64,000 nucleotides of DNA from Pleurostoma richardsiae. Taxonomy: Eukaryota > Ascomycota > Sordariomycetes > Calosphaeriales > Pleurostomataceae. The stretch covers positions 1,240,001-1,304,000 of the forward strand of contig JANBVO010000001.1 in NCBI GenBank assembly GCA_030052745.1, given 5' to 3'. Of this stretch, positions 2,046-59,720 are shown one piece after another (the stretch's first letter is position 1; each line of letters opens with the position of its first letter). The position numbers and the translations under genes were made by a program. The notes under the pieces are model-generated. The model was not told the DNA's origin and searched no databases. It worked only from the letters and a program-made list of their open reading frames with translations.

Positions 2046-4232
2046 TCATGCCTTTGCTGTCGAGGATGCCACCGTCCGCTCAAACTCAGTAGCAATGTCA
2101 AACATGTATCCATCCATGCCTTTTGTGCACACAAAACTGATGCCGAACGGCATCCCCCCATTCACATACCCTGCATTGACGCTCACAGCACACAGATCCA
2201 GCACGTTGCCGAAGTGCGTAAACTCCCCGAGCCTCGCGTTGAGCGCGATCGGCTCAGCCTCCATCTCCGCGATGGTGGGATGAGAAGGGACGGTCGGGAC
2301 AAGCAAGACGTCGACACCCCCACCGCTCCTCGACATGAGCCGGGCCACCTGCCGCGTCGCTTCAGCCTGCGTGAGCTGGTCCGCGAAAACGTCCCAGGGC
2401 TTCGCGTCTCTGGACAGCACCTTGGAGAATAGCTCCTTCGTCGTTGGGTGCAGGTCCTCTAGATTCGACATGACGAAGTCCTTCCCGATGCAAGCTATCC
2501 GTTCGTTCACCAAGCTACCACTGTACAGAAGCTCCGTGGCGGTCAGGAAGGGTTGGTAGGATGCGTTGTCCAGAGTTTTCATCCGGCCGCCCATAGACCG
2601 CACCATGTCCACGGCTGAACTGAAGGCATTCCGGAAAGCCTCGGAGCACGCTCCCAAGGCCGCGGGCGGGGGCACGGCAAAGGTGAATCCTGCCTTGCGC
2701 ACGCCCCTGTAATCTGCCAGCGGAAGCGGAAGCGAGCTGGGTTCTTTTGCGTACGCGTCTTCGGGGTCGTACTGGTCTGCCACATACCACACCTTCCGCG
2801 CGTCCTCTGCAGAGAGCGCGAAGATAGACGCGGTGTCCAGGCTCCGGCAGGCCGGCACGATGCCCCGGCCCGACAGCGTGCCCTTAGTAGGCTTGTACCC
2901 GACGATGCCGTTCAGGGCGGCGGGCACCCTACCACTGCCGGCCGTGTCGGTGCCTAGCGAGAAGCTAACCAGCTGCGCGGCGACGGCGACACCGGAGCCG
3001 GACGAAGAACCGCCTGAGACATACTTGCCCTCTCCGAAGACGCTGGCCGACGTTCCGTAGGGTGACCGGCACCCGCTGAGACCCGTTGCGAGCTGGTCCA
3101 TGTTTGTCTTTCCGACCAGGATCGCGCCGGCATCGAGGAGCGCCGCGACAACTGGGCAAGTAGCTGTAGGGACGTAAGTGTAGGCCGGACATGACGCAGT
3201 GGTCGGCATCCCGGCGACGTCGAAGTTGTCCTTGACTGCGAAGGGTACGCCATACAAGGGCGGGAACTCCTCGCTGCCCACCTGGGCGTACTTCTCTGCA
3301 AGCACCCTTGCGCACTGCAATAGCTCGTCCCGCGACCGGAGATGTATCCAGATGTGCGGGTTCTCGCGCTCATACCCCTCGATCCGGGAGTAGGTGCTGC
3401 CAATGACGTCCTCGGGCGAGAGCGCGTGCTGCCTGTAGAGCTTCCCCAGCGTCGCGAGGTCAAGAGACCGCTCGTCCCAGGCGGGCGGCGTCGCCGGCGG
3501 CGTCAGCGGACCCGCGTGTTGCTCCGACGCAGCGATGAGCTCCGTGCTGTCGGCCGTGAAGCCAAACAGGCCGTCGTAGGCCGAGATCATGCCCAGTGAC
3601 GCCTTTACAAAACCCTCGTCGAACCCGCCCGTGCAGTCGCCCAGAACACAGCACTGGAACCCGCGGTCATTCGCCTCCCGCGCCGTCGTCGTCACGCAGC
3701 ACTCGGTCGTCACCCCGCACAGTATCAGATGCGTGACCCCCCTGGCCGCCAGCTTCCTGTGCAGGTCCGTCGCCCAGAACGAGCCCTTGCCCGGCTTGTC
3801 GACGACCACCTCCCCGGGCCGCGGGCGCACCTCGTCCACGATGCCGTGGCCCGCCTCCCCGCGCACCAGCAGCCGGCCCATGGGCCCCTCCTCGCCGATG
3901 CCCACCGCATGGTGCCCGCCCGGCGCCTGGACCTGCCGGTCGCGCTTGGCGGCGCTGAGGTCCGACAGGTCGGGCGCGTGGCCCTCGCGCGTATGCGCGA
4001 CGTGCAGGCCCAGGGCGCGGGCGGCGGCGAGGGCGCGCCGCGCGGCGGGCACGACGGACCGGACGGCCGCGAAGGCCGCGGCGTCGCCGCACTGGACGGC
4101 GCCGAAGCCGCCCGGGTCGACGAAGTCGCGCTGGATGTCGACCAGGACGAGGGCGGTGCGCGAGGGCGGGAAGGCATAGGCGTAGGGCTGCGCCGAGGGG
4201 AGGGTAATGGTGGGCGCCGTTTGGTCGGCCAT
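2046..4232 (-). CDS. Fusion of biuret-hydrolase-like cysteine hydrolase and allophanate-hydrolase-type amidase
   Basis: One intronless frame of 728 residues with two enzymes. Residues about 25-235 are an isochorismatase-fold cysteine hydrolase with D32 ('VDIQRDF'), K146 ('VVDKPGKG') and C179 ('GVTTECCVTT'). The K-to-C spacing of 33 equals that of biuret hydrolase BiuH and N-carbamoylsarcosine amidase, and 'REGHAPDLSD' and 'REANDRGF' also resemble BiuH/RutB enzymes. Residues about 255-715 are an amidase-signature domain with K334, cis-Ser S409 and nucleophile S433. 'GTDTAGSGRVPAALN', 'GYKPTKG' and 'VPACRSLD' are the marks of allophanate hydrolase (AtzF, Dur1,2). The extra C-terminal domain of AtzF/Dur1,2 is absent. 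Inferred reaction: biuret to allophanate and NH3, then allophanate to 2 NH3 and 2 CO2, in the cytosol. Ureidoacrylate or triuret remain possible substrates for the first domain. Codon 1 is the first ATG of the frame. Confidence 0.88.
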   Translation of the reverse strand: MADQTAPTITLPSAQPYAYAFPPSRTALVLVDIQRDFVDPGGFGAVQCGDAAAFAAVRSVVPAARRALAAARALGLHVAHTREGHAPDLSDLSAAKRDRQVQAPGGHHAVGIGEEGPMGRLLVRGEAGHGIVDEVRPRPGEVVVDKPGKGSFWATDLHRKLAARGVTHLILCGVTTECCVTTTAREANDRGFQCCVLGDCTGGFDEGFVKASLGMISAYDGLFGFTADSTELIAASEQHAGPLTPPATPPAWDERSLDLATLGKLYRQHALSPEDVIGSTYSRIEGYERENPHIWIHLRSRDELLQCARVLAEKYAQVGSEEFPPLYGVPFAVKDNFDVAGMPTTASCPAYTYVPTATCPVVAALLDAGAILVGKTNMDQLATGLSGCRSPYGTSASVFGEGKYVSGGSSSGSGVAVAAQLVSFSLGTDTAGSGRVPAALNGIVGYKPTKGTLSGRGIVPACRSLDTASIFALSAEDARKVWYVADQYDPEDAYAKEPSSLPLPLADYRGVRKAGFTFAVPPPAALGACSEAFRNAFSSAVDMVRSMGGRMKTLDNASYQPFLTATELLYSGSLVNERIACIGKDFVMSNLEDLHPTTKELFSKVLSRDAKPWDVFADQLTQAEATRQVARLMSRSGGGVDVLLVPTVPSHPTIAEMEAEPIALNARLGEFTHFGNVLDLCAVSVNAGYVNGGMPFGISFVCTKGMDGYMFDIATEFERTVASSTAKA

Positions 4233-5003
4233 GTTCGAAGATATGGGTAGGGGGTTGCAGCAACTGCGAGATTTTGGTCGCGTTTACTGCAGCTCCTGGC
4301 CGTAGTAATGCAGTCTTGAGCTGGAGTTTGTTCTCTTACCAGAATAGACTGCCTACACTACGTGACAATCGACCTTATCTACCGTCATGAGAAGTCGGCC
4401 GGCATCCAGAGGGAGTTCCCTGCCTCGGCATCCGGCCGGGTCGGTCGATAACGTGGGAGGCGGATCAGGGGGTCAAACGTCGGCCGTCGGCCGCCTTTAA
4501 ACGTGTTGCGCCGGCGGCGGCGGTCGCCTGAATCGTCCCTCAATGGGCCGTTGGCCAGCGGCCACCAGCGATTGACTAGTCGCCACTATCTTGAGTCCCA
4601 TCCTTAGTGTGCTTAGCCTCTGTTTGCTTCATCCTCTAGTCATGTCGGCCCGTCTACCTAGACTTAAGGCTGGCCAATGCCATGTGCTCAAGTCTTCATG
4701 TTTCTTCCGGCCCCTTAAGAGACGAGTTGTTCTCGTAGACCTGTCATGGCCCAGCTAAGAACTGTCTGCCATGCTTGAATTCTGCTGGCATCACAATCAG
4801 TAAGGTGCTTAGCATGTGAAGGGGCAACTTTGCCGTACAGAAGATAACGACGAGAGACTAGCTATGAGATGAGTTGCAGCGACGAGAGTATGTTCCCATA
4901 TACCAGCAAGAATCTCACGGGTGGATACAATCAAGAGCTGTTCAAAAGCAAGACAGGCTTCCTAAGCTATTCGAATTTCATCAACAGTGATACATACAAA
5001 CAC
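4233..5003. other. Promoter side of the hydrolase fusion gene
   Basis: About 770 bp upstream of the fusion gene and downstream of the oxygenase gene. No credible frame. It contains a canonical GATA-factor site listed separately. Confidence 0.6.
4374..4380 (-). promoter_or_regulatory. GATA-factor (AreA/NIT2) site upstream of the hydrolase fusion gene
   Basis: CTTATCT on the plus strand, AGATAAG in the sense of the gene, about 145 bp before its ATG. It matches HGATAR, the site of the nitrogen regulator AreA/NIT2. A single short site is weak evidence alone; it gains weight from similar sites before the next two genes. Confidence 0.45.
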
Positions 5004-6123
5004 TCAAGCCGGGCCAGCAGTGACCGCCGCGGCCTTGCCCTCCCGCAGCTCCTTCTGGTCCACCCTGCTCACGCTCAGGCGCTTCCACACGTACTCCCCG
5101 GCGAGCACGGGCTCGTACTTGCTGCTCTCCCCCTGCGCGAGGCAGCTGTCCAGCGTCGTGATCGTAGCGTCGTAGTTGACCCCGAAGAAGAAGGGGATCG
5201 AGTACCGCTCCTGGCCCGTGGTGTTGAACACGCGGTGCACCGTCGACACGAACCGGTCGTTGGTCCAGCGCGCCAGCATGTCGCCGATGTTGACGACGAA
5301 GGTGCCCGGCACGGGCGGCGCCTCGATCCACTCGCCCTCGACGTTGAGGATCTGCAGCGCCGGGACGGCGCCCTGGCAGAGGATGGTGAAGCATTCGATG
5401 TCGGTGTGCGCGCCGATGCCGAGGGCGTCGGGCTGCGAGGCCGGCTGCGGCGGGTAGTGGATCAGGCGGCCCATGGCGCCGGGCGTCGACACCAGCTCGT
5501 CGAAGAAGTCCTCCGGCAGCAGCAGGACCTGCGCGAACAGCCGGATCATCCGCCGCGCCAGGCCGAGGACGTCGGCGTAGTAGTCCGCCACGGCCTCGCG
5601 GAAGCCGGGCAGCTCCGGCCAGACGTTGGGCCCGCTCATGGGGTTCTCCTTCCACTCTGCGTCATGTTAGTCCAGGGGATTTCCAGGTCTATCTGGTTGG
5701 CTTCTGATCTCTCTCACCTGGTGCATCCCGGCCGCCCGACCATAGCGGATCGAGCTCCTTCTCGTAGCCCCAGTTGAACGCCTCGTTCAGGTCCGGCTTG
5801 CGCGTCTCGTCCGTCCGCACCTCGGCCGGGGGCTCGTAGCCCCGGAGGATCCGGGACTTCTTGTAGTTGATCTCATTCTTCCTCTCGGCCGCCTGCGCGA
5901 AGAAGCCCTCGGCGGTCTTGAACAGCCTGTCGATCTTCTCCTGGGGCACGTCGTGGTCCTTGATGTAGAAGAAGCCCACGCGCGTGCAGGCGTCAGTCAG
6001 CTGCGCGAGGAGCTCATCCTTGGGGCTCTTGAGCGATATCAGAGGGATCTCGCTGAAGTCCGCCCTCCGAGCCGTGTCGGAGGAGATGGCGCGCTGGTTG
6101 CCGCTGAAGGAGGTGAAGCTCAT
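5004..6123 (-). CDS. Fe(II)/2-oxoglutarate-dependent dioxygenase (isopenicillin N synthase-like)
   Basis: Soluble oxygenase that couples decarboxylation of 2-oxoglutarate to oxidation of an unknown small molecule. Exon model complement(join(5004..5656,5718..6123)), 352 residues, within the usual 300-370. The N-terminal DIOX_N region (about residues 20-140) is followed by the double-stranded beta-helix. Iron ligands H219 and D221 ('GAHTDIECF') and H276 ('STVHRVFN') and the 2-oxoglutarate-binding pair R286/S288 ('RYSIPFF') are intact. The open frame extends upstream only through a GTG, so I place the start at the ATG at 6123. Two paired GATA sites lie about 90-110 bp upstream. Thymine-7-hydroxylase, a pyrimidine-salvage enzyme, has the same length and fold, but nothing here identifies the substrate. 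The neighbours suggest nitrogen metabolism; this is inference. Confidence 0.88.
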
Positions 6124-7343
6124 TGCGACAGTGACAAGACTACCGGTTAGGATGGCAATATATTGCACGATACTGCGCTGAAGATGGGTTTGGCATCGTT
6201 CAAGTCCATCTCTTTATCAATCATTATCATCGTCCATTATTGGCCTCTTGGCCAGGTCTGGTTTGCTGGCCGCCGGCCCGCATCTTCTGCCCTTTGAGCC
6301 TGGGGAGTGGGCCGTCGGCCGCGACAGCTCCTGCAACCGCCGAGATAGGAGAGCAAGCGCCGGCCGCCGACTGGTCCGACGTCGCCAGCAAAAGGCCCAC
6401 AGCGACCGAATCCTCCAGGCGCCGCCGGCGTCCTGAGAAAGGCAATAAAGCTGCCATCCGCCGGCTGGATGTGCACATTGGCGGCGGACGTTCCCTCCGT
6501 ACGGAGTTGCTGTTGTGTACTACATATATATGTTCAGCGTCGCCGACGGCTAAGGCGCGTTCATGTAGAACAGTCATTGACGAGTTTTACGGCCCCTCCA
6601 AACGCTTTCATATACACAGATAATCGGCTGGGTCGAAGCGGTATAGCGAGTGTAGATGGAAGAGCAATGGCAAAGTGCCGTTCTGATGCTTCGAGGGACG
6701 GATGTTCTTGCTCAAGCGAATAATTACCTACCTAATTATGGTGCTTTGGCCTGCTGTCGATGCTGTCAATCTACGGTCTAATCGGCAGCGGGTAGAAACA
6801 TATGAACTGTTCGGCAACCAAGCAGTCAAAAAAGAACCCTCTGCCTGCCGATACAAAGTCGTCCTTCACGCTTCTCCTCACAAGGCCTGCTTTTGGAGGC
6901 TGTAGGATGCAGCAGTTTCCCAGAGCATTGATTACTCCAGCCGTTCCAGGACTGCCTCCTCTTGTCCTGTCCATCGTGTCTCTTTCTCGGCGCTGCCGTG
7001 TCTACGTATTACCGTCCAGGTGCTCATCAAACTGCCTGGCCACATATCCGCAGGCAATGTACATCCTTGCCGCTGGTAAAGGGCGTGCCATGCACGCTAC
7101 GAGCCCCCTCATTCGACGCTGCGCACTTCTCACGCCGCCATCTTCCCGGGCGCCCGTAAGCGGTGCTGGGTGCGTGGACCCAGAAAGCTTCTGGTGACGA
7201 CCCGTGGACTGGCTTAGTGCTGTACCTTTCCGACCGAAGCATGCCACGTGTCCGTCTGTATAAATTTGAGAGTATAAAAGTCGCCAATGTCATAGAAATG
7301 GTAGTCGTCTAATCGCGATCGTAGCATAATCATGACAGGTCAA
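6124..7343. other. Intergenic region between oxygenase and Zn2Cys6 regulator
   Basis: About 1.2 kb without a recognisable gene. The open frames at 6227-6723 and 6771-7293 overlap on both strands and have no family features. The part near 6124-6240 is the oxygenase promoter, with two GATA sites. Confidence 0.6.
6214..6229 (-). promoter_or_regulatory. Pair of GATA-factor sites upstream of the oxygenase gene
   Basis: TTATCA occurs at 6214-6219 and again at 6224-6229, that is TGATAA twice in gene sense, 10 bp (about one helical turn) apart and roughly 90-105 bp before the ATG. Both fit HGATAR. AreA/NIT2 usually needs two nearby sites, so the pairing is meaningful, though binding is inferred. Confidence 0.45.
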
Positions 7344-9489
7344 TCATGATTGCGGAGTGGGCGAATAAAAGAGACTGTGACTGCCGAGGTCTGCAAAGAA
7401 GGCCTGAGAGCTGGCGGCATCCAAGTCGAGCAGGCTGAAGTCCGGTGTCGCTGTCGTCTGTAAGAGCGCATATTGCGCGTCATTATGCCCGCCTCCGAAC
7501 GCGCCGTCCCCATCCGTGGTCGTATTGATCCCGAGACCGTGCGGGAACATGCCCTCGTTGTCAACCGTGATCGGGCCCTGCGCGTACCCAGGTCGGCCGA
7601 TCGTCCTACCAACGGGCGACCGGCTCATGTCCAGATCCTCGAGGCTGTCGACCATCTCCCGCAGCGCGGTGCTGACGAACCCCACGCCCTTGGCCCGCAC
7701 CTTCAGGCTCCACCGGAAGTCCTCCAGCTTTTGCCGGTAGAAGTCCGCCTCCTCGTCCGTCGCGCTCGTCGCCCACAGCAGCCCGCCGTACGTGCGTATG
7801 TACGCCAGCGACTTTGGCGAGGCGAACCACCAGAAGGCCTGCAGGTGCTCTGGCCGCAAAGCCTCCACAAAGCGCATCGCGTGCTCCAGCCTGGCCTTCG
7901 CGGCTTCACGGCAGAGGTCACGGACCGACTGCGGCGAGTCGGGCGTCAGGACTCGGACGATGAAGCGGTAGATCATGATCTCTGTGACGAAGTAGGAGAG
8001 ATGGAGGTAGCCGTTGGAGCATAGCTTCCGGGTCTTGACATCCTCCATGCGTAGACCCGAGGGCATCGCACTGGCCCACTCCTTGAGCTTCACCGCGATG
8101 GGCTTTACGAGCTCTAAAAGGCCTTGGACTCCACTTCTGGCGAAGAGCTGTTGGTTATAGGTTTGGTCGCCACTGTAGAGCGTTTCAAGAGCTTCTGCCA
8201 TGATCTCGGTGAGCCGTGCTAGGTGTATGAACAACAGCCTACCCTTCTCGACCTCGGTGCTGCCCTCTTTTTCGTCCTGGTCGAGCGCAGACTCAGGAAA
8301 GTCGTCCAGAGACAGATGCGGCATCCGCCAGTTTGGTGCCACGACATGTGAAGGACGGCCGTGGATCAATGCCCCCCATTTGTCCTGCATGAAGACAGCC
8401 CAGGCTAACCGCCGCCGAAGGCTCTTCTCCCAGTCAGGAATGTTCCATGATGAGCAGTCAACGTGTAGGCCTAGCTCTTCTGCAACGGCGACAATCTGGC
8501 TTGTCAAAACCCATGAGTCTCCTCCGGAGCGTTGAAGCAGTAGCAGCCCGGCCTGGATGGTGGACAGCTTTGGTCGATGGACCACGGCTGTCAGAGCCTT
8601 TGTTGCCGCCTTCACAAGGGCATCACCATCCGGTTTCTCTTTCGCCGATAATTCCTGATCGTAATCCCACCAGTCCATAGCTAGGAGGTAGACCGCCGCA
8701 AGCAGCGGTGGTGAGAACTCCTTGTAGGAACGAGCATACTTCTCCAGGAACACGCCCTTGTGGAGGATGGGATAGCTCGGGTGGACGGTTCGGAAGTATA
8801 GATCCACCAACCCGGGGCCATGAGGCCTGACGAGCCTCTCTATAGCCTCGACATCATCCTCATCATCAGAACTGAAGAGAGTTTGGCTGTCAGGCCGCGA
8901 TATGAACGTGGTCGACTCTGCAACCCGGCGAAACTTCGACTCTGTCTTCTCGCCTCCTCTCGCAGACAAAGATGCCTCTATGAGATCGAGGAGTACACCT
9001 TCATGCAACGACCCTGGGCCAATGTACTTGTAATGTGTTGTCCGGTGGAGGCCCAGTGTCCGATCGAGAAGTGATCTCCCCGAGCCATTCGCCGTACCAG
9101 CAGGTTGCGTCCCAACATCGTCTCGCGCGGAAGCCGGTCTCGTCCTCTTCCGTGACACACTAGTTATAGCTACGGTCAGCGAAATTTCAATATATGAAGA
9201 GATGAGAAAAGGGTTATACGAACGTCTCCTCAGTGCCAATAGCCTCGACGGCGTCGTTGTCACCGCCGTCTGCTCTCCTCTTCTTCCTCCGTTGGGGTTC
9301 GTCCAAGTATGTGCATTCGCGCTGATGAAAGGAGCACAGAACGCATTTGTCCTGTTGCGGCTCCTTGACGCACTTCAGTTTGCGCTTGCGACATATATCG
9401 CACGGGCGGTCGGCTCGTGGGGGTTTGCGCTGCCGCGGATGGGTAGCAGCTTCGGGGCTGGAGTGGCTCGTCGCCGAGGCATTATCCAT
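7344..9489 (-). CDS. Zn2Cys6 transcription factor of the TamA/Dal81 type
   Basis: Nuclear regulator. Exon model complement(join(7344..9146,9220..9489)), about 690 residues; the donor is clear, the acceptor (9147) is the AG that keeps phase without a stop. The first exon encodes the binuclear zinc cluster, Cys-X2-Cys-X6-Cys-X8-Cys-X2-Cys-X6-Cys, in 'RPCDICRKRKLKC' and 'CVLCSFHQREC', then a basic stretch ('RRKKRR'). The motif 'LLDRTLGLH' and the fungal-TF middle domain segment around 'AEELGLHVD', 'RRRLAWAVFMQDKW' and 'HGRPSH' resemble TamA of Aspergillus and Dal81/Uga35 of yeast. In yeast Dal81 drives GABA and allantoin/urea genes, with DUR1,2 induced by allophanate. Next to an allophanate-hydrolase fusion this points to a pathway-specific regulator. 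It may be a paralogue, not the TamA orthologue. A GATA palindrome sits in its promoter. Confidence 0.85.
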
Positions 9490-26831: not shown

Positions 26832-28271
26832 GCTGGCTGTGAGTTTCAGGGGTCGGCGTGTGCGGACCACCAAGCGGCTCTTGCGTTGTCTGCTATCAAC
26901 GCTTCTGAGTCGGGCTTGAGACTTACTGGAGGGGATCGAGAGCAAGAGAAAGTGCCGTGTGGTGTGTGAGTAATCCGGAGTGTGTAGAGCGCTGAGCTGG
27001 AAGTGCTGGAGAAAGTCAAAGGATGCAGGACGGGGAGGCAGCTTTTAAGGAGCCTCCAAACGACCGCAGCAGGCGCTAGATGTGTGAACAATAACGTTGT
27101 TCACGAACATAAGAGCGGCTTATCTTAAAATTTCAGATATGTTTCGCAGGATACAAGCTGCACAGAAGAGCTGCTTTCTTGCCAGGACAGGAACGGACGG
27201 AGGATGACCAGTCATCTCGAAACTGACCTGAGACGCAGCGTCAAAGGCGTTGCGCGGCCTCAATGGGAATAGAAGTCATGTCCAACATGGATACCTCATG
27301 CCTAGATATCTTCATACCGAAATGTGTCGAAATGGTGAGTGTAGCGCTGGGGGGGATGTGCCAAGGTTGATGCCGCGGAAACCCGTGTCTTGACTACCCA
27401 AATAAGTGACGGTCACAGCATTGTATGCAATGAGGCGTATCCAGAACCGTATTTTCCATCCTTTAGTCAGTTTCCTTTGTCAAAACACCAGATGCTGTTT
27501 GACCCGACTTGTGTGTGGTGCTGTCGCTCGCGGAGGTTGCTCACGACTCTCAAGACCCGGCATAAGGCCACAGTGCTATCGCTGCCAAAACATGCACCAC
27601 GCTTGCTCGCTTGTACGAGTAGTTTGCTACTGTATCTGTTAATGTTTCTGATCTAGTAGTATTGATTAATTCTTCGTCCCATTGGTCGAACAGGGCATGG
27701 GATTCGGGACAAGATACTTGGGAAGATAGCGGATATATTTCTCTGAAATACAAATAGCAGACTTTCTAGCCCCAGTAACAGGAGCACATGAACAGATTGG
27801 TCTTTAACGCTATACGGTCTACGTGTTCTCGCTCGTGTGAATGCTGTGGCTCTTCGTAGCGTGGTCGCTCCGGTAGGCCATACACACAACGTCGCAGATA
27901 AGCACATCTCACACTCATAAGGCGAGCCAGCAACTCCAGGCAAGAGCTCAGCGATACTCGACTCCTTTCAAAAAGCGATGGATACTAGTCTAGACTGTTC
28001 TCCATGGAGCAAATAGCACATGCTGCATTTCAGGCCGAAAGAGGCCCTTCGGTCGGATCGTTCACCCGCCGCGCAGCAGACGCCCGGATATCCCCCGACG
28101 CCGCCTTGATCATGACCCGTTTAACAATGCAAAAGAAAAAGACATAATACTAGCTAGATTGTAAGAGCACAACTCCCTGGCAGTGTAAGGTGCCGTTGGG
28201 GCGGTAGAGAAACACGTCATTCGTTATCCTTCGGCAGCAGGGCTCGGTCTAGGACAGGAAACTACCCCAGA
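26832..28271. other. Intergenic region upstream of the Cys-rich orphan
   Basis: About 1.4 kb downstream of cullin-3 and upstream of the orphan gene. Open frames at 27390-27656 are short, overlapping and featureless. No gene seen. Confidence 0.55.
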
Positions 28272-30967
28272 TTAGGCGAGATAGCGGTAGGCAGGCTGAG
28301 AGAGATCGTCGGCGCGTTCCAGGTACTCTCTCGCCATGAGATCCTCGATGCGCTTCTTGACCAGAGGCAGCTCGGGTTTGAAGCGAGCGGCAAGCTGTGT
28401 CACAACCTCGGTGATGAGGAGATTGTGCGCGAGCTCTTTGCGTTGCCTGGAGAACGTGTATGTTAGTATCCTTGCATTTGGGCGGCACTCCAAACAGAAA
28501 AAACATTGAACGGAGAACGCACTTCATAATCCGAACGATCGCCGCATCCACGATGTGGGCCCTCGTCTGGTCATTCTTCTTCTCCGTAGCCTTGCGCTCA
28601 TCCTCACCCTCAACCTTGGACACGGAGTTCACGATCGGCGCCTTGATCTTGACCGTCTTGCTGACGAAAGCCGCATTAAATTTAAACTTGTCCCCAGGCT
28701 TGACGGCCTTGGTCACTGGCTCCTTCAGGAGCACACGCGCCTTTGGAGCCAGCGACAGTGACGCAAGGACCCTACTGAGGTCGTGCGATGGTATGTTTGT
28801 CTCAGCTTGTATTTCCTCGAAGCTGAGCGATTCGTCCTCGGAGAGGTCATTGAAGAGTAACAGAACGAGCATGCCGTACGTGGGTACGTTCAGCTCGTAT
28901 CGCCGGTCTTTGCTCAAGGGGCCAGTGTCCTTGCCGGGTATCTTTGGGAAGATGCACTTGACGTCTGCGCTACCTGCAGTACCGACCCAAGTGAGGATGC
29001 GGCCACTGCGATCCTTGAGGTAGTATGCAAAGAACTTCTGTTGCAGCTCCTTGATTTCTGGTGGGAAATTGCATTCCATTCTTGATCCATCCTCGAGCTG
29101 TGACGACCGACCCATAACCTCGGGCGGCCAGTTGTTGCTGGTGAGAATGCTGACATTAAGATCAAGAATCCGGCGGCCAGAATCTTCCAGGCCTTGGATA
29201 TACCCGCGGTAATCCTCGGTCAAGTCGCGAGATATGTCCATGTCCTTGAACATGCCCTCGAACTTGGATGTGAAGTGGTTGCCTACTTCCTGCTTCATCC
29301 GTAAAATCATCTGTTTCTCCACGTCATGGCTTTCTGACTTGCCGTGCAGCAGCCGTCGAGCGAGGTGCTTCTGGTAATACCGCTCGAACATGTCCTTGTC
29401 TTGTAAATAGCGAATGAGAGTGATAGCCTTTTCCAATACCAGGTCCACCTCTGATTCTGTCTTGCCTCTGATGCCGCGCTTCAGGTTGTCATCTATAAAC
29501 AGGGAGACGTATTCTGAGCTGCGGTTGAACATGTTGATGAAGTCAGAGAAACTCTTCGTCATCACCGTTTGCAATATGAGATCGTCGGCAAAGCAGTTCG
29601 CAAGCAGGCTATCGAATTTGTCCTTCAACCGCAGTACGTCGTCCACCCACTTGATAGCCGCTGCCGTTTGCTGAGCGGCAGCATTGAGAGGCTGAGCCTT
29701 GGGCTTCTCCGTGGTGTCACCACCCTCTTCACCGTCGGCAGCTCCGCTGGCTGGCATCGAAAAGTTGGTATCCTTGAGAACCCGCTCAATCTCAAGGCCA
29801 AGTTCAACAATCCGCCTTTGTAGGATTTTGGATAATGCAGCCTTCTTCTGATCGACGCGGGAGACGAGCTGGTATAGGATCTTGAGGTCTTCAAAGCGAT
29901 CGTTGTCAATCATCGATCTGAGTCCGCTGCCTTCCAGGGCAAGGAACTCCTCTAGGTGCTTCGAGATGAGCTCTTCTTCGACAACTTTCGCGATCTTTTC
30001 CGTCGTCAGTTTTGAAACCGTCGTGTCGCACCGCTCCTTCTCCTCGAGTAACCGCTGCTGTGTGTGCCGCAACCACGTTGCAGCGTCTGCTTCCCGGACC
30101 AGGCGAAGGCATTCTCTCTGGTAGAATTGTTGGCTAGACTCGAGAAATACGGGTTCAAAGCACGTGAGGTAGAGCTTGTCGTCGTCATTCTCATCATCGG
30201 TCTCGTACAGGTCTTCGAGCATCGCTATGCAATTCCTGAGCAGATTCTTGTCGATGACATCCCCTTCCCTTTCCATATTAATCAAATCCAGGATGACGGA
30301 GTTCAGGACGTCCATCAGTACTCCGTCATAATCAAGTTGTGATAGACTGGATCGCAGTATGTGGTCTCTGAACAAGCCGATCGTAGTGGTAAAGATGGAG
30401 GGCCGCTTCGAATCGGTCGTGTAGCCGCGGTCCAGATACATGAGGACGTCTGCCGTCATATTCATGGAGAAATTATGGTTCTGCCAGGACTCTTTGAGGC
30501 CGGCCAGGAATTTCTCGCCCATCTGTCGCCGCTCATTGGCCGTGGTGCCAGGGAGGTCTTGGAAGGTCACGGTGACTAGGTTCTTAGAGAGAAGGCTCTG
30601 AATGCGAGGAATGACCTGCTCGGCGAACCACCGCTCCTCAAAAGCCTTGACACGAGAGTAGAGATCGTCTCCCTTCTTCTTAAGAACAATCTTATAGGAG
30701 GCTCGATACAGCTGCTCGAAGGAGAGTTTACTGGCATTGCGATTGTGTATGTCGACGAGAGCCTCCCTGAGGAGCTGCCAGCAGTGTTCGAATTCGTTGG
30801 TATCGGTACCAGCCCGTGCGATTGGCTGTCATCGGAGTCTGTCAGTGTCTGTCCTCTGAACTCAGAGCTTGCCGTTGAGGGGATACAGGCAGAAGCAGCA
30901 TTGGAAGGGTGAAAAATCCACTTGCCCTTCGCGGCGGACGAATCTTCCCGCCGGGCCGATGCATCAT
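28272..30967 (-). CDS. CUL3: Cullin-3, scaffold of CRL3 ubiquitin ligases
   Basis: Scaffold that links BTB substrate adaptors to the RING protein Rbx1. Exon model complement(join(28272..28446,28523..30825,30926..30967)), 839 residues, the normal length. Exon 1 (MMHRPGGKIRPPRR) has the short basic leader seen in fungal cullin-3. Exon 2 opens with 'FEHCWQLLREALVDIHNRN' and 'SFEQLYRASYKIVL', the cullin N-terminal repeat and BTB-binding face, and continues through the cullin homology domain ('CNFPPEIKELQQKFFAYYL'). The last exon completes 'IVRIMKQRKEL', containing the Lys that is neddylated, and ends 'PAYRYLA', the invariant cullin tail. Intron 1 appears to use a GC donor (AGG|GCAAGT); no GT donor nearby keeps phase. 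Without splicing the last intron the frame runs on into a false C-terminus. Confidence 0.94.
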
Positions 30968-41093: not shown

Positions 41094-41612
41094 GGTGGCT
41101 GTGACTTTCGGGAAACAGGTGTCGTACTGCCTCCTTCCCTCGACACGCAAAGTCGCGGTGGGATGAAGCCGTCGCAGAACCGTCCCGCAAACCTCAAGAA
41201 CGCGGGAAATTTTTTGAGAGAGTGCGCTAAGATAAGCTGATAAGATTTCCTCTGTGGGGCACTCCTCAACTTGTCACTCGCCGCCTTCCCCCCTCACTGA
41301 ACATCTCACCGCAGATAAGACGGTTAAACAACGGTTAAACATCTGATTGACACGATAAGAGCTTAAGTTTGCGACGGAAAGCAGGTACGCCCTCAAGAAG
41401 CTCAGGTCTAGCATCGCCAGACGCAACTCTCTTCCGAGATTGTTACCGGCTGATCTCTCCCAGCAAGGCTCGAACAGTCACGATCTTCAGATCATATCAA
41501 AGCAGCTCTACTATTAACACTCTGTTTTGCTGGCTGGGTCTCCGAATCTGCGAGCCTTCCTCCAGCGTGTCCTGCCCACTCTAGCCGTAGCCAGGGCAGG
41601 CTTTTGCCGAAC
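41094..41612. promoter_or_regulatory. Bidirectional promoter between UTP20 and the Cwf19-like gene
   Basis: 519 bp. It contains AAATTTTTT at 41207-41215, resembling the RRPE element of ribosome-biogenesis genes in UTP20 orientation, GATA cores at 41230-41236, 41238-41244, 41313-41319 and 41353-41359, and a tandem ACGGTTAAACA at about 41320-41340. Assignment of factors is inference. Confidence 0.4.
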
Positions 41613-43381
41613 ATGGCTCCCAAGATGTGAGCCATTCCTGCCTCTCGCTGGCTGTCAAGCTCACGTCTAACAACCGTAGATTTGTCTTCGGCAGCGTCAA
41701 CGGCCAGCTCAATCCCGCATTCGCCAAGCTCGCCTCCCTGCACGCCAAGAACGACTTCTCCTTTGCTCTCGTGACGGGCAATCTCTTCGCCGAAGACCAG
41801 GACGACGACAGCCTCACCTCCCTCCTCGACGGCACCATTGGGGTCCCCGTGACCACCTACTTCACAGTCGGCACCTTGGCGCTTCCCGCGCGTGTGGTCG
41901 AGAAGATCGAGAAGGACGAGGACATCGCGCCGAACCTGCACTACCTCGGCAAGCGCAGCGTGACCAAGACCACGGACGGCGTGCGCATCGTCACCCTAGG
42001 CGGCGTCACCGACGCGTCCGACATCGACGGGCTCTCCAAGGAGCAGCACCTGCCGCTGCACACGCAGGGCGACGCACGGACGCTGCGTGGCGCCAACTCG
42101 GCGGACATCCTGCTCACGGCTACCTGGCCATCATCCGTGTGGAACGGGTCTAAGGTCGCGCTCCCCTTTGATCCGACATCCATACGAGGCAGTGGCGCGA
42201 TCGCGGATCTGTGTACGGCGCTGCGGCCGCGTTACCACTTCTGCCCTTCACCGGATGACTTCTTCTTTGAGCGGGAGCCGTTCTCGCACCCTCCTAAGGG
42301 AAACGAAGCGGAGCCGAGTGCAGACGTCACGCGCTTCGTCTCCGTAGCGCCGTACGGCAATAAAGCAAAAGCGAAGGCAATGTACGCCTTCACACTACAG
42401 AGTAGCGCGGCAGATGCCCCGCCTCCTGGAACAACCCTGTCACCATTCGCAGAACGGACAGGCACGCAAGCTAAGAGGCGCCAAGCTGCTGACGACGAGG
42501 GCGGCTTCTCACGCTTCTCCCACGATACTGGCCGCGGCCGGGGTCACAACCGCCGAGGCAAGCGGCAGAAGCTCCCCCCTCCCGGGCCTGACCAGTGCTT
42601 CCTCTGTCTGGCCAGCGCAGCCGCGCCCAACCACATGATCTGCTCCATCGGCAACGACACCTACCTCGCCACCGCCAAGGGGCCCCTCCCCTCTCCCACC
42701 ACCTTCGCCGACCAGGGGCTCAGCTTCCCCGCGCACATGCTCATCGTGCCGCAGCCGCATGTGCCCACTGTGTCGCACTCCTCCTTCGCGGACAGCCCCG
42801 CCGAGGCCGAAACCACGTTCAAGGAGATGTCGCGCCTGCGCGAGGCGCTGCAGGCGATGGTGTCGGCAGGATCGAGGCGGCAGCTAGGCGTGGTGACGTG
42901 GGAGATCAGCCGCGCGGCGAACATCCACGCGCACTGGCAGACGGTGCCGGTCCCTGCGCGGCTGGTTCTGGGCGCGGGAGGCGACCTCGTCGAGGCCGCG
43001 TTCCGCGTCGAGGCGGAGAACCTGAGTCTGCCGCGGCTGGAGGCGCGGGACTTTGGCCTCGACGACGAGGTCGGCGGTGACTTCCTCCGAGTGTGGATCT
43101 GGTGTGAGGAGGAGAAAGAAGATGACAGCGCCACGGCTGGAGGAGAAGGGGATAAGGAGGGCGCGGGCGGCGGGCGGATTGTCAGCAAGACGCTGCTAAT
43201 GCGGCTCGACGAGAATGTGCGCTTCGACCTACAGTACCCGCGGCGGGTGATGGCAAAGCTCATGGGCCTGGATGACAGGCTGGTCTGGCAGGAGTGCGTG
43301 CAGGAACAGGAAGACGAGAAGCGCGACGTGCTGGCCTTCCGGAAGGCGTTTGAGCCGTGGGACTTTACGTTGAGAGAGTAG
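41613..43381 (+). CDS. Cwf19-like (CwfJ) protein, spliceosome / lariat debranching factor
   Basis: Nuclear RNA-processing protein related to yeast Drn1, human CWF19L1 and S. pombe Mug161; family members bind the intron-lariat spliceosome and Dbr1. Exon model join(41613..41626,41680..43381), 571 residues. Exon 1 is only 14 nt (ATG GCT CCC AAG AT), joined to 'A TTT GTC' to give MAPKIFVFGSVNGQL, the conserved family start; this validates the unusual tiny exon. Residues about 1-230 form a metallophosphatase-like domain ('FSFALVTGNLF'). CwfJ_C_1 begins near 'DQCFLCLASAAAPNHMICS' (about residue 308) and includes a HIT-like 'IHAHWQTVPVP' near residue 420. CwfJ_C_2 follows to the end ('VWQECVQEQEDEKRDVLAFRK' region, ending 'FEPWDFT'). 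The linker contains an RG-rich, basic segment. Confidence 0.94.
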
Positions 43382-55661: not shown

Positions 55662-56587
55662 GATCGGACGTTAAGGCGTGATTGCCCGCAATAATTGACG
55701 CAGATTGTGAAGGTGACCGAGCATTTTCTCAGTGCGAGACTCCTAGTCCGAGGCAGATTCGGGGGCTGCTGAAGAGGAGGAGGAGGAGACGGTGAGAAGG
55801 GTTGACGCGCCTCAGCCGCAGCGCATCCGAGATGAGATGAGCGAGGAGCCAGCGAACGCAAAAGTGAATGAGTGCTCATCACGATCTCAGACAGGGGAAC
55901 ACATCCTTCAAGATAAGATAAGGCCAAGAGCCTCGGCCAGACTAAGGCCGTAATGCCAAGGAGAATTGGACTATTTGCCGCCTAGACCGATCACTCACAG
56001 ACATGGGGAAGCGAGAGTCTCAGTAACATATGACAGGCCGCTTATTAGCGATGGTACAAGGTCTGGCCAGCGAGCGACCAGCATGGGAGAGACCAACTGA
56101 TCGGACTCGTTGTAGCCAAGTCGGTACGACGCTGACAACAAATAGCATACAGTTCAGAAGTACAGAAGCTACCATGCCTCTTACATGTGTACTTCCGTAG
56201 AGATTGGAGCCGCAGATCACATCCATCCGTGTAGACTAGACAGCGCTAATGCGGTTGCGTCAGCGAGTTTACGGCTAAAGCGATATGAGCAATTCATGAT
56301 CAAGAGGTCGTGGGATGATGTTGAGAGCCCCCCTTATTACCCCTCGGCGGTGAAGACTAATTAGCGGAGCCTGTTGAAGATCCGGGGACCGACTTGATGA
56401 GTCAGCGGCTGGAGCGGGGGTCAGGGCTCCTTATCGATAAGCCTAAATGATGAAGGTGAACGGCGGTCGACCGCGGCAGAATGCAGGTCCCCAGAAAAAA
56501 GTTCAGTTGCGAGCGCCGTAGTGTTTCCTTGCACTGGAAGCTAAGCGATCTTGTTCTACATGCGACAATCTCCCAAGGCACGACAAG
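55662..56587. other. Divergent promoter region between the mannosyltransferase and POL5
   Basis: About 925 bp between two divergent starts. No frame with features. It must contain both promoters. Confidence 0.55.
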
Positions 56588-59500
56588 ATGGGTAGCAAGA
56601 GAAAGCGTCTGGCCAAGGAGGTCACCAATGGCACTCAACCGTCCCAGAAACGAGCAAAGACCATTGAATCGAAGAAGACGAAGGGTGCCGCTCCCAAGAA
56701 GATCAACAAGAAGAAATACCTCCAAATTAAAGGGCCGTTCCCGGATGAGCTGTCGTCGGAGGACCGTATAAGAGAAGCCGTTCTCTACGAGTTCCTTGGC
56801 AGCGAGGACCCGGAGGAGCGGCTGGAGGCTGCCGACGCGGTCATATCTGGATTATTTGGCGATGAACCGGCCTCGGAAACAGTGCTTCGGAGACACCTCG
56901 GGTGGAGGCTCTTCAGGGGACTTGCAAGCGGGAGGAATGCCTCTCGCCTAGGATACAGCATCGTTATCACTGAGCTTCTGTCGCAGCTGTTTGGCGATCA
57001 GGACTTGGCCAGCTCCCAATTTCCCGAGCTGACCTTCAAAGCTGTCTTGGACAATCTTGTTGAGAAGACGACTCCGACTGGGAGTGCACTTGGGCAAGAG
57101 GAGAGAGACCACTACTTTGGCCAGCTCTTTGGTATAGAATGCTACGTCCGGGCCAAAGTTCTCTTCAGAGACACCACTAGATGGGACTCCATTCTCGACC
57201 TCTTGCTGAAGCTGGCCAAGAAGAAGTCGTGGCTGAAGGCTCAATGCGCATGGGTCATCGTCCAAGCAATACCACAAATGAAGAAAAAGACCGCAGAGGC
57301 CACATTGCAGTCTGTCGCCGACGCCGGATTCTCCAAAACCCCTGATGGTGTCGCCATTTGGATCGTTGCCTTGGAGCGATTTCCTGATATGCAAGTCCCA
57401 TCCAAGCCATGGCGCGATCCTCTGTCTACCAAGTCCCTTCAAGACTTGGCTGCAGTATTGAAAGACAGCGGCAAGTCGGAGGACAACGGCGTGGATACTT
57501 CGAAGACATCTAAGCTGCAGAGCAATTGGACGGCCCAGCTGCACTTTGTCTGGGACATTATCCTTGCGCACTTCATCAAGTCTGCGGCCAAGAGCAAGAA
57601 CAGCTCGCCCGAACAGTTCAAAGCGTTCTGGACTCGGGTTGTGGACCAGGGGTTCTTCTTCAAGAACGCTACCGACCTCCAGAAGTTCTCTGGGTTCCTC
57701 ATCTTCCAGAAGTTCCTTGACGGTGGCTCTTCCCAGCCATTCATCTCAGACAACCTCTTCAGCAAGAATTTCATGGTCTGTCTTATGAATCAGGCGGCCA
57801 AGGAGGATAGATACCTCCACCGGGCAGCTCACAAAGCCCTTAAGTCGATCGAAATAGCTGTAGAGAAGAACGACGACCTTCTGCTGCCCGTCCTGCAGGA
57901 GCTTCTGGGTGACAACGGCGCCTTCAATTTCGACCAGCGAACGCATGCCAAGACTATCGAAAAGATACTTCAGTTCACCAAGCCAGGAAACGTGAGGCTC
58001 GTCATTGATGCGCTACGAAGGCTGGTGCTTCTCTCGCCGAATGCGTAAGTCTCCGTCCCGAGTAGGATAGTGGTCAATCATTAACTTTTCAATTAGTGAA
58101 GAGGCCGAGAAGCGCGGGCAAATCTACGGCGACTATATCTCGAAGTTAGCCAGTATTACCCGGGCTGAGCTTGCTAAGGACGGTGAAGTGCCTGTCGCTG
58201 CTATTGCGCTCCAGGAGTTGACGAAGATCACGTATTCCACTACCGCGGAGGCTCTTCCGGCAATGACCGACAAGACGAAGGCGATCCTGCGTCATCGCGT
58301 CAGTAGTGCCTTCGCAAAGTTCATCAAACGCCCCGCAGACTTTCCTCACCTTTGTGCGGCTGTCCTGTCGATTGACTCGACTGGCATGGAGATGGACGAG
58401 GAGCTGTCAGCTCAACTAGACGAAGCCCTGACAAGGCTCAAGGCTCTTATCAAGCCAAAGAAGAGTCACAAGGGCCGCAGTTGGTATCAGGGACTTGCTT
58501 TGCTCCACGCGGTTGCAATTTTGGAGCTATACAATGAGGAGGCCGATGCTCTCGAAATCCTAGGTGACCTCAAGGAGTGTTATGAAAAGTTAAAGAAAGA
58601 GGACACGGGAGAGGTCGAGGGGACTTCGCTCTTGCTCGTTGAGATTCTGTTGTCCTTGTTGGCGCGACCCTCGTCCTTGATGAGAGAAGTCTCGCAGAGG
58701 GTCTTCGAAGCCTGCTCAGAGCTCATCGGTCCAAAGGCTCTTGCCCTCCTCACGGACACTCTCTCAGCAGAGGAGAACGCCAAGGGAAGGCAGGCTCTAT
58801 TCAGTACCGAAGACGAGGAGATGCTTGACGCAGATGGCTCAGACTCTGAGGAAGAAGACGGTGATGGTATCGATGTTGATTCCGACGTTGAATTCATCGA
58901 CCTCGAAGACGAGGCAGAGGCCAGCGGCTCAGAAGGAGATGACGAGGACAACGAGGACGATGAGGACGAAGACGAAGAAGGCGAAGAGGATGAAGAAGAC
59001 AAGAAACTGCAAGAGCTCGATGACGCTCTGGCGAAGGTCCTTAATAGCCATCGCCTCGACAAAGATGCTGAGGCTGAGTCCTCCGACAACGACTCCGACA
59101 TGACTGATTCGGAGATGATGGCACTGGACGAGAAGCTCACTGAGGTGTTCAAGCACCGCATCAACAAGATGAACTCGAACAAGAAGAAGGAAAAGAAGGA
59201 CGCCCGTGAGACGGTCGTCAACTTCAAGAGCCGCGTCCTCGATCTTCTCAGCATCTACGTTAAGGCTCAACCCACGAGCCCAGCTGCGTGGGGCCTACTT
59301 CTGCCTCTGCTGGGCCTCGCACGCACCACAAAGACCAAGGCGCTCGCCAACAAGGCGGCTGGCATCATTTCTGACTTCTCGAAGGGGCTCAAGAAGGCCC
59401 GGACTAGCAAGGAGACTGTCAAAGGCACCTCCCTGGACGACCAGCTAGCTCTGCTGCGGGAAATCCATGAAGAGGCGGCCAAAGACGGGTCTCAAGCTTT

Positions 59501-59720
59501 CGCGAAGACGGCCGCTGCCGCCAGCTTGGCTGTTGCCGCACACCTCTTCTCTCTGGAGGAGGACCACGAAAGCAATGTCAAGCAGGTGGTTGATGTCTAC
59601 GACGAGACTCAAGTCCGCTGGACAATGTCGAAGAACAGGGGGCACGTCTCGTTCTTCCAGGAGTGGATTCATTGGTGGGGTGACTGGATGCAGGGACATA
59701 CTCAGAAGCAGGAGTCGTAG
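56588..59720 (+). CDS. POL5: Pol5 / MYBBP1A-like nucleolar protein
   Basis: Nucleolar factor of rDNA transcription and ribosome assembly; called DNA polymerase V/phi but not a functional polymerase in this role. Exon model join(56588..58044,58097..59720), 1,026 residues. The first 45 residues are a nuclear signal ('KRKRLAKE', 'KKINKKKYLQIKGPF'). 'VLYEFLGSEDPEERLEAA', 'RLFRGLASGRNASRLGYS' and 'ERDHYFGQLFGIE' are typical of the N-terminal helical-repeat region. An acidic tract spans about residues 723-787 ('EEEDGDGIDVDSDVEF' and a long D/E run), followed by 'ALDEKLTEVFKHR', and the end 'NRGHVSFFQEWIHW' is the conserved family terminus. The single 52-bp intron splits codon GC|T (A) before 'EEAEKRGQIY'. 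A second ribosome-biogenesis gene in this window besides UTP20. Confidence 0.95.

Follow-up and report, generated by a model that had tools for sequence, protein, structure and literature searches.

Whether one fungal protein could carry biuret all the way to ammonia is the question raised by a gene on the minus strand of a 64,000-nucleotide (nt) stretch of the Pleurostoma richardsiae genome (assembly GCA_030052745.1, contig JANBVO010000001.1, positions 1,240,001 to 1,304,000; in the following, the window). In this gene a cysteine hydrolase related to the biuret hydrolase BiuH and to TrtA, which acts on triuret, is joined to an allophanate hydrolase (AH), and an earlier reading of the letters had proposed a one-polypeptide biuret-to-ammonia enzyme. 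Two known enzymes are naturally fused in this gene, of which the genome has two copies, and the window copy is altered at a residue that sets specificity. As judged by sequence comparison, the fusion is rather likely to be a single-chain, two-step ureide hydrolase, of which the second copy (contig C45) would be the biuret/triuret enzyme and the window copy would be shifted in specificity by a tyrosine, Tyr219.

Gene structure, second copy and the allophanate hydrolase half

The fusion gene and its parts were located as follows.

2046..4232, minus strand: whole coding sequence, 728 amino acids, intronless, cysteine hydrolase plus AH amidase domain (open reading frame, Pfam, NCBI models)
3519..4232, minus strand: N domain, residues 1-238, isochorismatase-like cysteine hydrolase of the BiuH/TrtA group (PF00857, PDB matches, trees)
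3459..3518, minus strand: linker, residues 239-258, containing TPPATPP, of low model confidence (paralog alignment; predicted local distance difference test, pLDDT, <50 at 244-253)
2049..3458, minus strand: C domain, residues 259-728, AH amidase domain without the AH C-terminal domain (NF006043, Foldseek)
4137..4139, minus strand: codon of catalytic Asp32 (TrtA D24; alignment)
3795..3797, minus strand: codon of catalytic Lys146 (TrtA K129; alignment)
3696..3698, minus strand: codon of the nucleophile Cys179 (TrtA C162; alignment)
3576..3578, minus strand: codon TAC of Tyr219, replacing the substrate-binding Gln (TrtA Q202, BiuH Q215; CAG in the C45 paralog)
3231..3233, minus strand: codon of Lys334, amidase triad (AH alignment)
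3006..3008, minus strand: codon of Ser409, amidase triad (AH alignment)
2934..2936, minus strand: codon of Ser433, amidase triad, aligned with the AH nucleophile Ser (AH alignment)
2499..2525, minus strand: Tyr570 and Arg578 pair of the AH domain (AH alignment)

The open reading frame (ORF) starts with an ATG at 4232 and runs through 728 unbroken codons to 2046, stop codon included. The strand had been left unnamed in the sequence-only reading, and the proposed fusion of a cysteine hydrolase and an AH on a single polypeptide is real, being one intronless ORF with a second genomic copy. Pfam identified an Isochorismatase domain at residues 26-217 (E 2e-37) and an Amidase domain at residues 287-707 (E 5.1e-71), both far beyond chance. 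These were the only two domains that Pfam gave, and a urea carboxylase part was thus absent from the chain. Both catalytic triads are complete as described earlier (D32/K146/C179 and K334/S409/S433, all at these numbers), and the stretches TDTAGSGRVPAALN and VPACRSLD were found in the translation. The AlphaFold2 model of the fusion, calculated from a 34-row alignment, had a mean pLDDT of 84.6 and a predicted template modelling score (pTM) of 0.69, with two folded parts and the low-confidence stretch 244-253 between them.

The 39.4-Mb genome behaves as that of a fungus, with intron-containing genes and Fungal_trans regulators. A search of it identified another gene, on contig C45, that encodes both domains, arranged as in the window protein. 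It is split by one short intron inside the N domain; read with GT-AG ends, this intron is 59 nt long and leaves the active-site segment intact. The window and C45 proteins are 55% identical over their length, with 62.0% identity for the N part (234 aligned residues) and 53% for the AH domain (452 columns). The N half has thus stayed closer between the paralogs than the AH half has, and it does not look like a decaying domain. The linker pattern TPPxTPP is common to both proteins, and the AH C-terminal domain is absent from the C45 copy as well. The presence of a second gene of the same order elsewhere in the genome speaks against an assembly accident. An assembly or annotation artefact was ruled out by the uninterrupted ORF together with the spliced paralog of the same domain order. 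A scan of viral contigs found no relatives of the fusion.

For the window gene (2049-4232), the G+C content at third codon positions was 0.93 (N half) and 0.77 (AH half), and the corresponding values of the paralog were 0.71 and 0.78. Long plus-strand frames at 3589-4179 and 3729-4250 lie opposite the G+C-rich N half, and their composition looks like that of shadow ORFs.

On sequence and predicted fold, the identity of the C half as an allophanate hydrolase is solid, as had been proposed. It scored 316 bits against AtzF, compared to 122 bits for the best GatA. The AH subfamily model NF006043 was passed barely by the window protein (487.3 bits, cut-off 487), and the C45 copy remained below it with 464.6 bits. 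For the full-length AH equivalog model TIGR02713 the score was 452.3 bits against a cut-off of 511.05, the match reaching position 415 of 563. Foldseek returned allophanate hydrolases or urea amidolyase as the 12 best chains, other amidases ranking after them (among the best 50 of 910 matches), and the C half reached a TMt of 0.91 to the amidase domain of AtzF (4cp8). In the AH alignment, 17 of 18 rows retain both the triad and the Tyr/Arg pair; the exception, L065, is a wrongly trimmed row. We take Y570 and R578 to be the substrate-binding Tyr and Arg of AH (Y299/R307 of the Granulibacter enzyme). The AH domains of both fusions and a stand-alone AH on contig C44 form one clade (98/99; 18 rows, bootstrap not settled). 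An AtzE-type amidase was rejected, with 162 and 168 bits on two AtzE models versus 487 for AH.

The amidase domain, the triad and the Tyr/Arg pair are shared by AtzF (4CP8), the Granulibacter AH (4GYR) and the AH part of yeast Dur1,2 (4ISS). Full-length AHs, however, possess a C-terminal domain, which was removed in the 4CP8 construct, and lack the cysteine hydrolase of the fusion; in Dur1,2 the AH is fused to urea carboxylase instead. The fusion chain ends directly after the amidase domain. The AHs of related bacterial loci extend 142-168 residues beyond the matched region in eight of nine loci; the ninth, L073, is cut off by a contig end. AtzF truncated after residue 467 was described to match the full-length enzyme in activity, with biuret as the assay substrate (PMC3944691). 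The missing C-terminal domain, for which the sequence-only reading had called for a spontaneous or other decarboxylation, is therefore no obstacle to the amidase step, and this step requires no special solution.

The N half and residue 219

The best matches of the N half in the PDB were RhdBiuH of Rhodococcus (213 bits), TrtA (209 bits) and the Rhizobium BiuH (193 bits), and RutB followed with 81 bits. The N-domain identities were 51.6% (RhdBiuH), 47.1% (TrtA) and 46.0% (BiuH). A RutB-type or isochorismatase identity was rejected on the difference between 81 bits for RutB and 213 for BiuH, and the firm grouping with ureidoacrylate hydrolases or isochorismatases that had been named beforehand as the contrary result did not occur. 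The NCBI equivalog model for BiuH, NF050097, was missed widely (233.5 bits, cut-off 370).

For a bacterial comparison, one genome per species from 84,980 prokaryote species was scanned with two eight-residue patterns. This resulted in 58 loci, 49 of which hold an N-domain match at E 1e-10 or better. From these loci 72 ORFs were obtained and 68 tabulated at the residues named in the TrtA paper (PMC7948467): 24 of TrtA type, 36 of BiuH type (D160; one of them, L083, is a distant relative with 31% identity) and 8 others. The window N domain is 45-55% identical to the TrtA-type rows and 31-50% to the BiuH-type rows. In a 52-row tree, 31 BiuH-type rows lie on one side of a 100/100 branch with the fungal pair outside, and 19 TrtA-type rows lie on their own side of a 93/83 branch that the tool did not star. 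The fungal pair (100/99) stands between the two groups, its nearest tips by path being of TrtA type, and an earlier, larger tree agrees. Both trees are unrooted and carry a long-branch warning from the tool. Since the root is unplaced and the branches are long, a sister of TrtA and a sister of BiuH are both possible. By these alignments and trees the N half is a member of the BiuH/TrtA group, yet apparently neither of the two, and forms a fungal clade of its own. The earlier label BiuH-like thus holds for the ureide-hydrolase group as a whole, but not for BiuH itself, whose model was missed and whose rows exclude the fungal pair.

The Asp/Lys/Cys triad of BiuH is present (D32, K146, C179), the second Lys and the Phe shared with BiuH are kept (Lys149, Phe37), and the positions of the first-shell residues D24, F29, E72, K129, K132 and C162 of TrtA are intact in the window protein. 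From the TrtA consensus, F35 and E160 are kept in the window N domain, and A134, Y187, Q202 and I205 are replaced by Ser, Phe, Tyr and Leu, respectively. The fungal N domains thus combine F35 and E160 of TrtA with the S134 found in BiuH, and they have residues peculiar to them at positions 187 and 205; Glu177 and Phe43 of the window protein are TrtA letters, not BiuH letters. N41 of TrtA hydrogen-bonds to Gln202. At this position one alignment reads Asp for the window copy and Asn for C45, and the other places Gly in both, owing to a one-residue insertion; this difference was not relied on, since its placement depends on the alignment.

BiuH (Rhizobium leguminosarum 3841, 6AZO; RhdBiuH, 6XJM) has the fold family, the triad and the second Lys and Phe in common with the fusion. 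It is, however, a stand-alone enzyme of a separate clade, and its Gln215, Asp173 and Tyr47 correspond to Tyr, Glu and Phe in the fusion. TrtA (Herbaspirillum BH-1, 6XIX) shares the triad, F35 and E160, and TrtA-type genes are found near atzF on two plasmids; it also stands alone and differs at Q202, A134, Y187 and I205.

The position on which the reading turns is Gln202 of TrtA (Gln215 of BiuH), which reaches into the active site of the neighbouring subunit and binds the substrate (PMC7948467, PMC5806882). It is kept in all 24 TrtA-type and all 36 BiuH-type bacterial rows. The C45 copy has Gln at this position, and the window copy has Tyr219. The two codons, CAG in C45 and TAC in the window, are two base changes apart, so Tyr219 is not a single-base error. 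When the N half was aligned with BiuH for the biuret-binding residues, the binding Gln of the proposed biuret hydrolase turned out to be replaced. In BiuH, variants of Gln215 act on biuret with a 38- to 1300-fold lower kcat/KM, namely 357 (Ala), 115 (Glu) and 3958 (Asn) compared to 149742 for the unchanged enzyme (PMC5806882). The TrtA variant Q202E lost more than 95% of its triuret activity, and its very low biuret activity rose tenfold (PMC7948467). By analogy, biuret is probably a poor substrate for the window copy, and the biuret-to-ammonia label fits the C45 copy better.

A true biuret hydrolase fused to AH, converting biuret to three ammonia and two CO2 with Tyr219 tolerated, is unlikely in the window copy. 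The triad, Lys149 and Phe37 speak for it, as does the best single PDB match, a BiuH, with RhdBiuH giving the top identity of the three references (51.6%). It conflicts with Tyr in place of Gln215, with the TrtA letters Glu177 and Phe43, with the 100/100 branch that separates the fungal pair from the BiuH rows and with the missed NF050097 cut-off.

The loss of this key binding residue could also mean that the window N domain is no longer an enzyme, the protein acting as an AH only, with the N domain as a scaffold or dimerisation module. The position of the window copy apart from the C44 and C45 loci is consistent with this. The triad and the other first-shell residues, however, are intact, and the N half is better conserved between the paralogs; together these favour a change of substrate over a dead domain. 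A loss of N-domain activity is quite improbable.

Several points weigh against the reading as a two-step ureide hydrolase with a shifted window copy. The Gln is not universal, as four bacterial rows (L074-L077) and a tentative row from contig C71 carry Glu. The BiuH variants compared are Ala, Glu and Asn, none of them Tyr, so that the loss of biuret activity through Tyr219 is an extrapolation. The N half is below the BiuH cut-off and is without several TrtA consensus residues, and for both reasons its substrate cannot be read from homology. The cyanuric acid hydrolase cluster described below is on a different contig from the window copy. Finally, AH enzymes can hydrolyse biuret themselves, and AtzF was assayed with it (PMC3944691); ammonia released from biuret would therefore not prove an active N domain.

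Under the preferred reading, a probably dimeric N domain would deaminate a small ureide to allophanate or to a carboxylated relative of allophanate. The product would diffuse to the AH domain, where the Ser-Ser-Lys triad would turn the nitrogen that is left into ammonia, CO2 being lost spontaneously. The C45 copy, in which the binding Gln is kept, would be the fungus's biuret/triuret enzyme downstream of cyanuric acid hydrolase, and the window copy would be a paralog with a shifted N-domain specificity. The channeling of allophanate proposed earlier finds no support in the nearest precedent, yeast urea amidolyase, for which the authors of a mixed-mutant test conclude that allophanate moves by diffusion (PMC5770610). 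To account for a fusion, it is enough that having both activities in equal amounts is of benefit. The natural Gln/Tyr difference makes the published idea on biuret/triuret specificity testable in one organism.

Gene order in bacteria and ureide genes in the fungus

Bacterial plasmids were searched for the order of the corresponding genes. The protein was matched at E 1e-30 or better by 421 of 72,556 plasmid records, 19 of which have one place covering at least 80% of the fusion protein. Three of these loci were read. On an Ideonella plasmid a BiuH-type gene lies upstream, and the TrtA-type gene that follows shares its last four bases with the beginning of atzF. An Agrobacterium plasmid carries a BiuH-type gene, an ATP-binding cassette (ABC) transporter gene, a TrtA-type gene, a cupin gene and atzF. 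On a Rhizobium plasmid, a ring-opening amidohydrolase on the other strand is followed by a BiuH-type gene, a 121-residue protein and atzF. The domain order of the fungal protein is therefore found in bacteria as an order of neighbouring genes, namely on the Ideonella and Agrobacterium plasmids.

Among the 58 pattern loci, 10 carry both cysteine hydrolase and AH matches, and a further one (L092) has a weak amidase match alone (28% identity); these neighbour counts are lower bounds, since many contigs end close by. Both hydrolase types are held by the fetched DNA of 7 of the 10 loci, with the TrtA type nearer to AH in 5 and the BiuH type in 2 (L054, L062). A BiuH-type gene is nearest to AH in L054, L062, L064 and L073. 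In L038 and L060 (TrtA type) and in L064 (BiuH type), a cysteine hydrolase on the strand of AH immediately precedes it at a distance of no more than 400 bases. In none of the 10 loci with both matches do the parts share one ORF, and a bacterial fusion was thus not found among them. The genes trtA, trtB, biuH and atzF have already been published together on one bacterial contig (PMC12625717).

The four loci with a BiuH-type gene nearest to AH and the Rhizobium plasmid, where BiuH type, a 121-residue protein and atzF follow the amidohydrolase, add to the case for a biuret hydrolase in the window. Gene order also bears on a TrtA fused to AH, which would turn triuret into carboxybiuret and, by spontaneous CO2 loss, into biuret, to be degraded by the AH domain or by the paralog. 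Of 7 chromosomal loci with both types, 5 have the TrtA-type gene closer to AH, as do both plasmid loci read that contain both types, but in the other 2 of the 7 it is the BiuH-type gene; this mixed order lowers the weight of a TrtA fusion. The nearest tips in both trees are of TrtA type, the identity reaches 55% with TrtA-type rows compared to 50% with BiuH-type rows, F35 and E160 are kept with an aromatic residue at Y187, and trtA is stated to occur in some fungi (PMC7948467). Q202 and I205, however, are not kept, A134 is Ser and N41 is not kept in the window copy; the change Q202E alone cost TrtA more than 95% of its triuret activity (PMC7948467). The product of TrtA is also not the substrate of AH, and a fusion of the two would leave out a step. 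Taken together, a triuret hydrolase in the window copy is distinctly unlikely.

In a Nitrospira metagenome-assembled genome (MAG), the TrtA-type gene before AH (L060:8123-9108) is split over two frames, by an assembly error or as a broken gene. Glu at the substrate Gln together with Tyr at the second Lys was found in L074, L075, L076 (6001-6615) and L077 (5874-6521). These come from three Hydrogenophaga and one Burkholderiales MAG and are BiuH relatives forming a separate group; that they are guanylurea-hydrolase-like is a guess.

A natural fusion of BiuH or TrtA with AH was not found described in the literature searched, and sources outside its reach may mention one. The 2018 work of Robinson on biuret hydrolases is said to report fungal members. 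An artificial construct for tobacco selection, BA2H, joins a biuret hydrolase and an AH in one reading frame; unlike the fungal fusion it is man-made from bacterial enzymes, and a P2A peptide separates its parts after translation (PMC13155557). A natural one-chain biuret-to-ammonia enzyme would also be useful, since the artificial one has already been built (PMC13155557).

In the fungal genome, a cyanuric acid hydrolase gene was found beside the stand-alone AH on contig C44, in divergent orientation and with the matches 0.75 kb apart.

L028:1292-2296, plus strand, contig C44: cyanuric acid hydrolase (PF09663, 350.5 bits)
L003:1471-2931, minus strand, contig C44: stand-alone AH without C-terminal domain, 487-codon open frame

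Among the matches of the C44 piece, five cyanuric acid hydrolases with 220 to 187 bits outscored barbiturase (143 bits), and a barbiturase identity was rejected for this reason. The piece passed TIGR02714 (246.7 bits, cut-off 153.1) and remained below the NCBI cyanuric acid hydrolase model (319.3 bits, cut-off 360), its presumed first exon being outside the query; by eye, a likely first exon lies just upstream. A fungal cyanuric acid hydrolase was reportedly described by Dodge in 2013. The C44 pair is likely a fungal s-triazine nitrogen cluster. Together, as predicted from sequence, the C44 cyanuric acid hydrolase and the C45 fusion would complete the route from cyanuric acid to ammonia. The passages of the literature consulted say little on the fate of biuret in fungi after cyanuric acid hydrolase, and a two-copy fused enzyme together with a cyanuric acid hydrolase in one genome is a concrete candidate for this step.

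Other sources of allophanate have to be weighed. The sequence-only reading had assumed that the AH has no urea carboxylase partner. This is not supported as it stands: carboxylase-like genes are present on contigs C102, C62 and C63, none of them above the urea carboxylase cut-off, and a urease (C82) exists besides. Two of these carboxylase genes, on C102 and C62, are related to urea carboxylase (L031:6055-9841 and L033:3851-7916). The C102 carboxylase adjoins a LamB/YcsF gene, which presumably suggests a use for lactam or oxoproline instead. DUF1989 proteins, whose family we take to hold carboxyguanidine deiminase, are encoded on C46 and C69. At the position that we take to separate urea from guanidine carboxylases, the C102 carboxylase has Asn and the C62 carboxylase has Ser. 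An Asn/Asp rule for this separation has been described (PMC12186494). A guanidine route to allophanate is therefore also possible in this genome. Since urease, uricase, carboxylase-like genes and DUF1989 proteins are all present, the premise that the AH depends on its own N domain for allophanate is not secure.

A single-domain BiuH-like gene with introns lies on contig C71 (L034, about 4979-5837, minus strand); as tentatively spliced, it carries Glu in place of the substrate Gln and Arg in place of the second active-site Lys. L030:7725-9386 (plus strand), at a distance of about 8 kb to the C45 fusion, encodes a protein that by eye resembles a purine-cytosine-type permease but gave no Pfam match, a possible ureide transporter.

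Neighbouring genes and an oxygenase lead

The genes next to the fusion in the window, and oxygenase genes elsewhere in the genome, were as follows.

5004..6168, minus strand: 2-oxoglutarate (2OG)-Fe(II) oxygenase gene (piece 5004-5639 PF03171, 92.3 bits; piece 5689-6168 by eye)
7347..9263, minus strand: fungal-type transcription factor, Fungal_trans (PF04082, 104.6 bits)
L034, about 3140-4292, and C62:133014-133187: 2OG oxygenases near the C71 and C62 loci

The oxygenase next door is possibly linked in function to the fusion, and the Fungal_trans factor is a possible local regulator. The genome search gave at least 40 loci for 2OG-Fe(II) oxygenases. Of 7 ureide-type loci, 3 have such an oxygenase no more than 2 kb away (those of the window fusion, of the BiuH-like gene on C71 and of the C62 carboxylase), where 0.046 would be expected (Poisson P 1.6e-5); this is a post hoc value, as the locus set was picked after two cases had been noticed, and the genome counts are lower bounds. 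The association serves as a lead and no more. Among solved structures, the one closest to the window oxygenase is annotated as an ethylene/succinate-forming enzyme (141 bits), and thymine dioxygenase is also listed (100 bits). Since these solved relatives are too distant, a substrate cannot be named. A doubtful but conceivable route, not described before, would have the oxygenase make or free an unusual ureido or guanidino compound, the Tyr219 hydrolase, its substrate pocket rebuilt, convert it to allophanate and the fused AH finish the degradation.

Farther off in the window, housekeeping genes were found.

28252-30828, minus strand: cullin
41591-43378, plus strand: CwfJ-type protein
56522-59717, plus strand: DNA polymerase phi, in two pieces

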